A stretch of DNA of 64,000 nt from Gammaproteobacteria bacterium (GTDB taxonomy: Bacteria > Pseudomonadota > Gammaproteobacteria > SZUA-229): assembly GCA_015488885.1 (NCBI GenBank), contig WFMW01000023.1, positions 1-64,000 of the forward strand, read 5' to 3'. Shown here piece after piece: positions 1,878 through 53,073 of the stretch. Under the pieces are notes generated by a model. That model was not told the DNA's origin and made no database searches. It saw nothing but the letters and a program-made list of their open reading frames with translations. The stretch's first letter is position 1. Each line of letters starts with the position of its first letter. A program made the position numbers and the translations under genes.

Positions 1878-1941
1878 TTAACCCGAACATTTCATAGAAA
1901 GGCTATAAATTACTTTAACACCATGAATATATTAATAGAGA
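1878..1941 (+). mobile_element. Single-ended relic of the TTAA/CCCGAATATT inverted-repeat element (copy C)
   Basis: TTAACCCGAACATTTCATAG at 1878 matches the left terminal repeat of the complete copy at 5235-5388. The similarity continues through a GCTATAAAT block and a CTTTAACA..ATGAATATATTAATA block. No right-hand end is found before the tRNA, so this is a decayed or partial copy in the folB upstream region. Confidence 0.65.
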
Positions 1942-2043: not shown

Positions 2044-2119
2044 TGGTGGGCCGTGAGCGACTTGAACGCTCGACCATCGGATTAAAAGTCCGGTGCTCTA
2101 CCAACTGAGCTAACGGCCC
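2044..2119 (-). tRNA. tRNA-Lys (anticodon UUU)
   Basis: The minus strand folds as a cloverleaf: acceptor GGGCCG pairs with CGGCCC; D-arm AGCTCAGTTGGTAGAGC; anticodon loop CTTTTAA with anticodon TTT; T-arm with GTTCAAGTC. The 3' CCA is encoded. It stands alone between queC and a terminator, downstream of the tol-que run. Confidence 0.96.
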
Positions 2120-4584: not shown

Positions 4585-5157
4585 CTATTTATAGACTATA
4601 TCTACACGACGATTTAACTGCCAGGATTCTTCATCATGACCGAAGGCAATGGGTTTTTCTTCACCATAACTGATCACTTCTATCTGCTCTGGACTCACTC
4701 CTTCATAGAGTAATAACTGTTTAACCGCCTGGGCACGACGCTCACCCAGTGCAACGTTATATTCTCTGGTTCCACGCTCATCGGTATTGCCTTCCAGCCG
4801 TACTCTTGCCTGCGGATTCAGCGATAAATACTTACCATGATACTTAATCAGATCAAGATACTTCTCAGGCACTGCATCACTGTCATAGTCAAAGTAAATA
4901 CGGCGTTCAGATAACACGTTATCCGGGTCATTGATCGCGCCTTTTTCATAAGAAATATGTTTACCATCTGCCAGCATGGTAGTACCTGTCATATCACTGT
5001 TATCAACCGAGCCAGTCGTCGTTGCATTTTCCTCTGTGCCATTCTGTGCTGAACCATTCTGCGCAGTATTATCACCTGCTGTCGCATCAGGTTTTAATGG
5101 TTGCCCACAGGCGGTTACCATCATGGCGACAAAAGCCAGTAAAATAAATTTTTTCAT
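4585..5157 (-). CDS. pal: Peptidoglycan-associated lipoprotein Pal
   Basis: Outer-membrane lipoprotein that binds peptidoglycan and TolB and is recruited by TolA to septa. The signal peptide MKKFILLAFVAMMVTAC ends in a lipobox VTAC with the acylated Cys at 17. A Thr/Asn/Gly-rich linker follows. The C-terminal OmpA-like domain contains IYFDYDSDAVP and the peptidoglycan motif EGNTDERGTREYNVALGERRA with RRVDI. A GAGG ribosome site precedes the ATG. It is separated from tolB by an inserted 154-bp inverted-repeat element, unusual inside this operon. Confidence 0.97.
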   Translation of the reverse strand: MKKFILLAFVAMMVTACGQPLKPDATAGDNTAQNGSAQNGTEENATTTGSVDNSDMTGTTMLADGKHISYEKGAINDPDNVLSERRIYFDYDSDAVPEKYLDLIKYHGKYLSLNPQARVRLEGNTDERGTREYNVALGERRAQAVKQLLLYEGVSPEQIEVISYGEEKPIAFGHDEESWQLNRRVDIVYK

Positions 5158-5234: not shown

Positions 5235-5388
5235 ATTAACCCGAATATTTCATGGGAACGCTATAAATATGGCTTAACATAATGGATATACTAATAAATA
5301 TTGGTATCAGAAAAATACACTATGTACCTGTTGCTCGCTATGCAGTTTTTGGAAAAATCCTGCATTCCCATGAAATATTCGGGTTAAT
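5235..5388. mobile_element. Complete MITE-like element (copy A) with 24-bp perfect terminal inverted repeats
   Basis: Positions 5235-5258 and 5365-5388 are exact reverse complements over 24 bp. The core of the arm is TTAACCCGAATATTTCATGG. The 106-bp interior is A+T rich with no convincing gene. The TTAA at the tolB side forms the tolB stop codon (complement of 5384-5386). If TTAA is the target duplication, the insertion preserved the original gene end. Related copies are at 27391-27643 and 1878, with relics elsewhere. No transposase gene is present, so it would need one in trans. Confidence 0.85.
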
Positions 5389-6676
5389 CACGCACTGGTG
5401 CCCAGGCCGGATCTCTCACATCACCTTCACTAAATGCCAGACGTTGCCTGAATTTACCATCAACCGAAACAGCAGCCAGAACAGCATGTTTATTTTCCTG
5501 AGAAGCAAATAAAACCATACTGTTATTTGGGGCAAACTCAGGGGATTCATCCAGTGGCCCCTGCGTGAGAAGCTGGTAATTCCCGGTTTTTAATGTCATT
5601 AATGCAATTCTGTAGATATTACCTTTACCCTGCACATAAGCCAGCAATTTTCCATCCGGTGAAATGGATGCGCTGGCATTGTAATTGCCTGCAAACGTTA
5701 AACGGCGCGGTGACTGCTTACCCGTTAATGATTTTATATATAACTGTGGTTTTCCACTACGCCCCGAAGTGAATATAATCGACTTACCATCGGGTGTCCA
5801 TACTGCTTCAGTGTCAATCGCCCACTGGTGCGTAAACCGACGTAATAACTTATTGGCCAGCGTTAAGATATAAATTTCCGGATTACCATCTTTTGACAAT
5901 GTAATCGCCAGTTGTTTTCCATCCGGTGACCAGGCCGGCGCACCATTTAAGCCTGGATATGAAGATACCAGTGTGCGCACACCACTATGAATGTTCTGAA
6001 TATAAATCTCAGCATGGCCTTTCTCAAAAGACACATAGGCTAATTGTGAACCATCCGGTGACCAGGCAGGTGACATAATGGGCTGGTCAGAGGTTAATAA
6101 AGTCTGCGGGTTATAACCATCGGTATCAGCAACCTTTAACCGTGAAACCATGCCTGTTTTGGTATTATGCTGCACCGTGACATAAGCGATACGTGTATTA
6201 AAAGCCCCTGGTAGTCCGGTAATTTGGGTAAATATATAATCACTGATCTGATGAGCAATCGTGCGCAGGGTCTTTTTCGTTGCAAAAAAACTGTAGCCCA
6301 CAACCTGCTGGCCTTTTAATACATCAAACAGGCGGAACTTGACCTGATACCTGCCATCAGGCTGTAAATTTACACTACCGATAACCAGATGATCCATGCC
6401 TGCCACACGCCAGGTTTTAAAGTTTATATCCTTAGGTTGCTGCGGATGGGAAAGCAGGTCTTTTTCAGCCATCGGCGAAAACTTGCCACTTCTTGCCAGG
6501 TCGGAAACAACGATTGCCGAAACATCAGCATCGGGCAGTTTTTTTGTGTTCCATTGGAACGGCACCACGGCAATTGGCAATGCACCTTCCAAACCCTGAG
6601 TTATATCTATTTTTAATACTGCATGGGAGGTACTGGCAAAAAAGACCAGAATTAAACTTGCTAAAATCTGTTTCAT
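5384..6676 (-). CDS. tolB: Tol-Pal system translocation protein TolB
   Basis: Periplasmic beta-propeller protein that interacts with Pal and TolA to keep the outer membrane in step with division. Signal peptide MKQILASLILVFFASTSHA. The N-terminal domain runs to about residue 160; then WD40-like/PD40 blades repeat the motif SPDGSQLAYVS, SPDGKQLAITL, TPDGKSIIFTSGRSG and SPDGKLLAYVQG. The end DVRDPAWAPVRD matches the usual TolB terminus; the final TAA lies in an inserted repeat element. It is 15 bp after tolA. Length (430 aa) is normal. Confidence 0.97.
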   Translation of the reverse strand: MKQILASLILVFFASTSHAVLKIDITQGLEGALPIAVVPFQWNTKKLPDADVSAIVVSDLARSGKFSPMAEKDLLSHPQQPKDINFKTWRVAGMDHLVIGSVNLQPDGRYQVKFRLFDVLKGQQVVGYSFFATKKTLRTIAHQISDYIFTQITGLPGAFNTRIAYVTVQHNTKTGMVSRLKVADTDGYNPQTLLTSDQPIMSPAWSPDGSQLAYVSFEKGHAEIYIQNIHSGVRTLVSSYPGLNGAPAWSPDGKQLAITLSKDGNPEIYILTLANKLLRRFTHQWAIDTEAVWTPDGKSIIFTSGRSGKPQLYIKSLTGKQSPRRLTFAGNYNASASISPDGKLLAYVQGKGNIYRIALMTLKTGNYQLLTQGPLDESPEFAPNNSMVLFASQENKHAVLAAVSVDGKFRQRLAFSEGDVRDPAWAPVRD

Positions 6677-27390: not shown

Positions 27391-27643
27391 TTTAACCAGA
27401 ATATTTCATGGAAAGGCTATAAATCCATCTTAACATTATGAACATATTAGTAAATATTGATATGGGAAAGTACACTATTCGTCTATTATCCGCTATGCCA
27501 TTTTTGAAAAAACCTCAGCAGTCATACTTGAATAAGGCTGGAATTAATTCACCTGTAACTGTAGCTATATTCAACGAATCGGCAAAACTCATTCACTGGA
27601 ATTAGTCAGGAATTCTACATTTCCATAAAATATTCGGTTTAAT
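27391..27643. mobile_element. MITE-like element (copy B), 253 bp
   Basis: Outer arms at 27391-27414 and 27620-27643 are inverted repeats with about 20 of 24 matches, cores TTAACCAGAATATTTCATGG and its partner. The first 130 bp align with copy A (shared GGCTATAAAT, CTTAACAT, AAATATTG, TACACTAT and CGCTATGC blocks); the extra 100 bp before the right arm are unique to this copy. The right arm contributes the asnB TAA stop (complement of 27639-27641). It accounts for most of the 358-bp gap here. Confidence 0.8.
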
Positions 27644-29429
27644 TTTTAGTTACGCGGTCTAAATTCTGTTGCAGCCACAACTCCAGCGCGGCCAGATGCC
27701 ATAATTTATTGCCCTGAAGACGGGTAAAATGGGCTTCCGGCTTATGTAATAATTTTTCAACATAGGCCGGATTAAACAGACCCCGCTGTTTTGCGCTATC
27801 AGACAGCAGAATATCTCGCATAAAAGCTAAAAAATCGCCCTGCACATATTTAAGTGCCGGCATCGGGAAATAGGCTTTGCGGCGATTTACCACTTTATCG
27901 GGCAGAAAACCTTTCGCCAGCTGTTTTAACACATATTTGCCACCATCCGGCAGTTTCATTGCCGGTGGCATACTGGCAGCCAGTTCAATCAGTTCGGTAT
28001 CCAGAAACGGCACGCGCGCTTCCAGCCCCCAGGCCATGGTCATATTATCGACCCGTTTTACCGGGTCATCGACAATCAGCGTGGTGACATCGACAGCCAG
28101 CACACGATCAAGATAGTCATCCGCATCGACCGTATTCAACAGTTCATCGACCAGTGCTGACGTCACATCCTGCGTATGGAAACGGGGATCTACCATGGCA
28201 AGATATTCATCATGATCACGATCAAAATATTCATCCGAAAAACGTCGAATACCCGACGTAATGGAATGATGCATCCGCGGATACCAGAAATACCCCGCAA
28301 AAACCTCATCGGCACCCTGCCCGCTCTGCACTACTTTGACGTGTTTTGCTACCTGTTCCGATAACATATAAAAAGCCACCGCATCCTGTGCAAACATGGG
28401 TTCAGACATATGCCGAAAAGCCTCGGGCAGACGCGGCAATACCTGATCGTTAGGCACCATTAACTGATGATGATCGGTAGCAAACCGGTGCGCGACGGCA
28501 TCCGAATATTCAAACTCATTGCCTTTTTCCTGCGGTGCATCCTCAAAGCCGATGGAAAAGGTTTTTAAATCCCGCTGCCCCGCTTCAGCCAGCAGCCCCA
28601 CCAGTAAACTGGAATCTATGCCACCGGACAACAATACACCCACCGGCACATCGGCAATTTTCACCCGTTTTTCAACCGCATTTCTCAAACCATCATGAAT
28701 AGCCTGTACCCAGTCCTGCTCGGTCATGTTTTTTTCAGGCCGCCGGGCGGATAACTGCCAGTAACGTTTTTCCACAACCCCGGTATCTTTTTTAATCAGC
28801 ATGTAATGCGCCGGTTTAACTTTCTGTATGCCTTTTAAAATGGTATTGGGCGCGGGCACCACCGCGTGCAGGCTAAATAAATTATGCAAGGCAAACGTAT
28901 TAATACTGGTATCCAGCGCGGCATCAGCATGAATAAGTGCGCGGGTGTTCGAAGCGAATAATAAACGCTGCCCGGTTAATGAATAGTAAAAAGGTTTGAT
29001 ACCAATACGGTCACGCGCCAGCAGTAATTGCTGACGATTATTGTCCCAGATGGCAAAGGCAAACATTCCCTGTAATTTTTCTACGCAATTTTCACCCCAT
29101 TCAATATAGGCGCGCAATATAACTTCAGTGTCGCCAGTGGAACGAAAGCGGTGACCTTTGGCCTGTAATTGCTGGCGCAACATCGGGTAATTATAAATCG
29201 TACCGTTAAACACCAACGCCACCCCGGTAGCGTCATCAACCATGGGTTGCGCCGCATGCTCACTAAGGTCAATAATCGCCAGCCGACGATGCCCCAGCGA
29301 GACCGGCCCGCACTGGTAATCACCTTTCCCGTCCGGCCCGCGTTCAGCCAGTTGCGACATCATTCGATATGTCACCTCAACTTGCGGACGACTAGCATCA
29401 AATCTTAATTCACCACAAATGCCACACAT
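27639..29429 (-). CDS. N-acetylglutaminylglutamine-type amidotransferase (asparagine synthetase family)
   Basis: Class II glutamine amidotransferase plus asparagine-synthetase domain, 596 aa. Cys2 nucleophile in MCGICGELRFD; amidotransferase residues RGPDGKGDYQ and FNGTIYNYPMLR; synthetase P-loop GVLLSGGIDSSLLVGLLAE and GQGADEVFAGYFWYPR. The opening MCGICGELRFD and the HAVVPAPNTILKGIQKV segment point to the enzyme that amidates the osmolyte precursor in NAGGN synthesis rather than to plain AsnB. The usual partner ngg and its peptidase are not adjacent, so the pathway assignment is inference. Its stop codon is part of an inserted repeat element. Confidence 0.8.
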   Translation of the reverse strand: MCGICGELRFDASRPQVEVTYRMMSQLAERGPDGKGDYQCGPVSLGHRRLAIIDLSEHAAQPMVDDATGVALVFNGTIYNYPMLRQQLQAKGHRFRSTGDTEVILRAYIEWGENCVEKLQGMFAFAIWDNNRQQLLLARDRIGIKPFYYSLTGQRLLFASNTRALIHADAALDTSINTFALHNLFSLHAVVPAPNTILKGIQKVKPAHYMLIKKDTGVVEKRYWQLSARRPEKNMTEQDWVQAIHDGLRNAVEKRVKIADVPVGVLLSGGIDSSLLVGLLAEAGQRDLKTFSIGFEDAPQEKGNEFEYSDAVAHRFATDHHQLMVPNDQVLPRLPEAFRHMSEPMFAQDAVAFYMLSEQVAKHVKVVQSGQGADEVFAGYFWYPRMHHSITSGIRRFSDEYFDRDHDEYLAMVDPRFHTQDVTSALVDELLNTVDADDYLDRVLAVDVTTLIVDDPVKRVDNMTMAWGLEARVPFLDTELIELAASMPPAMKLPDGGKYVLKQLAKGFLPDKVVNRRKAYFPMPALKYVQGDFLAFMRDILLSDSAKQRGLFNPAYVEKLLHKPEAHFTRLQGNKLWHLAALELWLQQNLDRVTKN

Positions 29430-52847: not shown

Positions 52848-52856
52848 GGTTATGGT

Positions 52857-53040
52857 GTTTCTGGGGTGTACGCAAGCAACCTGTATAATCCCTTGAGCCT
52901 TATATACTGACTACGGAAGCTGGTCTGTTGAATTTGTGTGCGATACCGCCTCGGCGGGAGGCCTGACGATTCATCGCTGGTTTCCAACCTGGACCATATC
53001 GGTTCGAGGTGGGCAGTATTGCTGCGGCACTCCGGTAACA
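52857..53040 (+). ncRNA. ssrS: 6S RNA
   Basis: About 184 nt between zapA and 5-FCL. The 5' part GGGGTGTACGCAAGCAACC followed by CCCTTGAGCC resembles the conserved GTTCGCAAGC...CCCTGAGCC of E. coli 6S RNA. The 3' end (GGCACTCCGG) pairs with CTGGGGTG to close the long rod; the central bulge imitates an open promoter. Binds sigma-70 RNA polymerase and reduces transcription in stationary phase. Ends inferred from pairing. Confidence 0.9.
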
Positions 53041-53073
53041 CCTTTTATTTACCCGACTTCACCATTCTACATT

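Follow-up and report, generated by a model that had tools for sequence, protein, structure and literature searches.

A TTAA-flanked MITE at the tolB stop codon of a gammaproteobacterium, probably moved by an IS1380-family transposase

The gene-less element found between tolB and pal is a genuine MITE insertion that duplicated 4 bp, TTAA, and left TolB intact. Very likely this MITE owes its mobility to a transposase of the IS1380 family that acts in trans and duplicates a 4-bp YTAR site, a short copy thereby arriving at the tolB stop codon. The element represents a new MITE family and the finding itself is well explained. It provides a clean case of a transposon with a stop-like target that enters an essential-type operon while the protein remains unaltered. 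In the proposed mechanism an IS1380-family transposase would act in trans on YTAR words (TTAA, CTAA, TTAG, CTAG), duplicating the target. A parent of the 240-bp class would have lost ~100 bp between two AAAATC repeats, giving a short product still able to transpose, and a short copy would then have inserted at the TTAA that spans the last base of tolB and its stop codon, with 78 nt of native sequence upstream of pal left in place.

The insertion between tolB and pal

The window, i.e. the whole analysed stretch of 64,000 nucleotides, comes from contig C23, one of the 72 contigs of a 2.63-Mb draft genome. The element occupies positions 5240-5383 (144 bp, plus strand) between two TTAA copies, at 5236-5239 on the pal side and at 5384-5387 on the tolB side. 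The pal-side copy was assigned to the target duplication from the sequence and from the 4-bp duplication rule derived from other copies of the family. The terminal inverted repeats (TIRs) lie at 5240-5261 (plus) and 5362-5383 (minus), the right one being supported by arm pairing and by TIR sites elsewhere in the genome. Taken with their flanks, the arms (5235-5261 and 5362-5388, 27 nt each) are 96% complementary. An earlier note on this DNA had described a 154-bp non-coding element with perfect TIRs of 24/24 bp. The inverted-repeat element is indeed real, but the element proper measures 144 bp and its own perfect repeat is only 19 bp, CCCGAATATTTCATGGGAA. The perfect inverted run extends over 24 bp when read from 5235/5388 (23 bp from the outer TTAA) because it takes in the 4-bp target copy and one flanking base that matches by chance. 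No ORF of at least 80 aa was found inside the element, which thus combines short size, absence of a gene and terminal inverted repeats, as expected of a MITE.

The tolB gene (5384-6676, minus strand; 430 aa, TolB_N and PD40 domains) ends with a TAA stop at 5384-5386 on the minus strand, inside the border TTAA as had been noticed before. The pal gene (OmpA family, 190 aa) was located at 4585-5157 on the minus strand by ORF and domain match, and 148 of the 226 nt separating the two genes consist of the element and one TTAA. The target duplication preserves the stop codon, and TolB is therefore unchanged. This agrees with the earlier proposal that the insertion spared the protein: the C-terminus appears native, ending at nearly the same place as that of TolB in relatives.

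Comparison with an empty site had been suggested as a check. The genus holds one genome and offers no empty site of its own, so that such a site can be read only in other genera. In other genera of the family the element was absent between tolB and pal in all 29 loci. The last base of tolB and its stop read TTAA in 9 of these, TTAG in 3 and CTAG in 3, i.e. YTAR in 15/29, the other 14/29 not being YTAR. The relatives' tolB-pal spacers measure 2-122 nt where pal was located, with one overlap call and one locus in which pal was not found. The loci without the element and the single TTAA at the stop in 9/29 support target duplication, although they fall short of a strict, same-genus empty site.

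Dispersed copies and their long and short forms

The element with ~10-bp flanks gave 84 BLAST matches in its own genome. The left TIR with its TTAA recurs at 61 genome sites with at most 3 mismatches, as counted with the word TTAACCCGAATATTTCATGGGA, versus 0 for a reversed control. In the window the TIR-plus-TTAA word has 5 matches at the same stringency, versus 0 expected from 100 shuffles. Full-length copies of the long form measure 240-274 bp (11 cases in this genome). Identical 4-mers were found on both sides in 18 of 41 candidate end pairs (14 TTAA, 2 TTAG, 1 CTAA and 1 TCAA), 3 of these 18 having a weak second end with 7-8 mismatches. The remaining 23 pairs have unequal words, most with a poor second end; pairs of the latter kind may represent one-ended or truncated copies. 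TTAG (twice), CTAA and TCAA are non-palindromic and occur as direct repeats, which identifies these 4 bp as a duplicated target lying outside the inverted repeat. The earlier suggestion that TTAA is a duplicated target is thereby borne out, and many dispersed copies with target duplication, a further mark of a MITE, are present in this genome.

A second copy in the window is of the long form (27392-27642, plus). TTAA borders it at either end, and within the right-hand TTAA lies the stop of a 596-aa gene (27639-29429, minus), named asparagine-synthase-like by eye from its sequence. The C-terminus of this protein also looks native, since the alignments of most relatives' proteins extend to residues 590-594 of its 596. 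Matches to the TIR word furthermore revealed a one-ended remnant at 1878-1941 (plus), consisting of a left end with TTAA and located close to a tRNA gene at 2047-2119 (minus). On contig C54 (22839-24760) three copies, two long and one short, are found within 2 kb, with TTAA, TTAA and TCAA as targets.

The origin of the short form was mapped by aligning 11 long copies with 3 short ones. The loss of ~100 bp maps to a repeated AAAATC, which in the tolB-pal copy forms the junction of the internal deletion at 5354-5359 (plus). This copy aligns with two other copies of 144-147 bp, and all three (C23:5240, C54:24617 and C23:66990) have one common junction while residing at different targets, TTAA, TCAA and TTAG, respectively. 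The short form must therefore have gone on transposing once formed.

The long form carries an internal hairpin (alignment columns 183-240), most of which is missing from the short copy at tolB. Among 28 full-length copies from several genera, changes on both sides were found in 7 of 18 interior hairpin pairs (24 cells versus 6.9 in shuffles), and the TIRs behave like the internal hairpin in this analysis. Such covariation is no proof of function, since the copies share ancestry and template switching can correct palindromes. A frame of 38-54 aa in the long form was considered as a gene and rejected: it has no plasmid match, Pfam gave just one below threshold (E 0.16), the frame overlaps the hairpin, and several copies carry indels that shift it.

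The probable transposase and its target words

One match to PF13701 (75.8 bits) was found in this genome, to the N-terminus of a transposase truncated, 84 aa after its start codon, where contig C64 ends. NCBIfam NF033539 assigns this fragment to the IS1380 family (E 3.8e-15), with a score under the whole-protein cut-off because the fragment comprises only 84 aa. Just upstream of the transposase start lies the tip CCCGAATATTTCACGC, with a CTAA flank read into the element (CTAA/TTAG), and contig C7 terminates in another copy of the tip, likewise preceded by CTAA. Between this tip and the MITE, common sequence is limited to the outermost 13 bp. The sequence CCCGAATATTTCAC is present at the tip of the genome's own IS, and the named-plasmid elements ISPosp7 and ISPa33 have tips similar to those of MITE and IS and duplicate CTAG. 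The MITE likewise makes a 4-bp duplication of the YTAR type. A third IS1380 element examined (L176) has unequal flanks. Unlike these IS elements the MITE lacks a transposase, and in this genome it duplicates mostly TTAA instead of the CTAG of ISPosp7 and ISPa33.

In the assembly IS1380 is represented by the two contig-end fragments on C64 and C7; there is no complete copy, and the right end is missing. A full IS is lacking because both contigs stop at IS1380-family ends. A 346-bp stretch with the IS end matches just these two ends and no MITE, the rest of the IS lying outside the assembly. With the body and right end of the IS missing, the partnership is inferred from the 13-bp tip and the target words, which point to an IS1380-family transposase as the MITE's probable mover in trans. 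Another candidate, the IS1380 transposase of a different genome, G023 (L115/L121), was rejected; it runs to a contig end, and in the stretch read no TIR of the MITE family was seen by eye. Variation in target size within the IS family is on record, its member IS1247 being listed with a 5-bp duplication in a published table (PMC3281130).

The MITE occurs in 17 of 54 genomes of the family, including its own. In a sample of 185 genomes from the class, matches beyond the family were confined to short ones of 25-42 bases in 3 genomes. No exact TIR match was found in viral contigs and no match to the long form in plasmids or phages. The copies in this genome reside mostly on TTAA, those of relatives often on CTAG. 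In the MITE-rich relative G011, CTAG is the target of 6 of the 14 copies whose end could be read, versus 5 of 96 non-coding YTAR sites in the surrounding stretches (P 4e-5), in a small sample whose target classes were counted by hand and whose copies may differ in age. In this genome CTAG appears once among 50 insertion rows, in a mixed CTAG/CTAA pair (Fisher P 2e-4). It is conceivable, and put forward tentatively, that within a single MITE lineage the target changed between an IS1380-like CTAG, seen in related genera, and a piggyBac-like TTAA, seen here, as a step between specificities, and that the hairpin of the long form was kept by compensatory changes and may have a role of its own as RNA or single-stranded DNA. 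The CTAG/TTAA contrast and the covarying hairpin across genera are the newer parts of these observations. The use of both words within one MITE family provides material for studying YTAR choice by IS1380-type transposases and its relation to the TTAA choice of piggyBac.

Alternative explanations and related systems

The sense RNA of the tolB-pal element folds into a stem of ~25 bp (-59.5 kcal/mol, z about -10), as would suit a functional feature of the operon, a terminator or mRNA stabiliser that is not mobile. This origin is highly improbable: dozens of copies of the sequence are scattered over unrelated loci, none of the 29 family loci has it between tolB and pal, and a search of the element for a terminator-like site found none. 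The dispersed copies with their target duplications refute such an origin; the element may still affect expression. A mobile element granted, it might be moved by a different, unseen transposase, piggyBac-like or of another DDE family, with a convergent likeness to the IS1380 tip. That only 13 bp are common to both tips would fit this, as would G011, where many MITE copies coexist with no match to PF13701, although repeats often drop out of draft bins. However, the IS in the same genome combines that very tip with identical target words (CTAA/TTAG). PF13843, the piggyBac-type domain, had no match in this genome in a search that lacked a positive control, no control genome matching either. A different mover is therefore considered unlikely, and transposition by an IS1380-family enzyme is preferred.

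Whether such a MITE is, in addition, selected for or aimed at stop codons as a safe harbour is a supplement to this explanation, not a competitor. Every YTAR reads TAA or TAG on both strands, and many gene stops (TAA or TAG after C or T) are thus possible targets. In 10 of 50 insertion rows the target coincides exactly with the end of an ORF of 100 aa or more; one of these 10 is uncertain, and one element appears in two rows (~9-10 of 48-50). The background was taken from a 400-kb sample plus the window, with 142/888 sites on stops at an ORF cut-off of 60 aa, 126/1049 at 100 aa and 102/1253 at 150 aa. At 150 aa, 8 of 48 insertions are on stops versus 8.1% expected (P 0.039), but P is 0.07-0.13 at 100 aa (12% expected) and 0.36 at 60 aa (16% expected). 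An earlier background of element flanks plus the window, the flanks being rich in intergenic DNA, had given P values down to 0.001. With P between 0.04 and 0.36 a preference for stops lacks firm support, and selection or aiming is regarded as rather doubtful. An orientation bias of the copies at stops, first seen by hand in 5 of 6, was abandoned when it disappeared over all ends (R 5 and L 3 in this genome, L 8 in other genomes).

Animal piggyBac elements resemble the MITE in duplicating TTAA, with rare TTAG, CTAA and TCAA variants, according to passages of a piggyBac study in which IS1380 serves as prokaryotic outgroup (PMC10813416); unlike the MITE, they reside in animal hosts. Passages on IS1380, MITEs and piggyBac in the literature (PMC10813416, PMC3281130, PMC4133298, PMC10140906, PMC9330008, PMC10969869, PMC2649163) describe no IS1380-derived bacterial MITE. 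Correia elements (CREE/NEMIS), as portrayed in parts of this literature, are similar in being ~150 bp long, without a gene and with terminal repeats that fold in mRNA, but differ in sequence and in target, which for CREE is TA and related words (PMC9330008). Passages of two papers state that their hairpins can be RNase III sites (PMC2649163, PMC10969869). By analogy, the stem between tolB and pal may be such a site, and cleavage there may leave co-transcription unblocked. At the gathering threshold Rfam gave nothing over the tolB-pal element or in three loci with long copies; elsewhere in the window a 6S RNA was found at 52855-53042 on the plus strand (RF00013, 75.1 bits).
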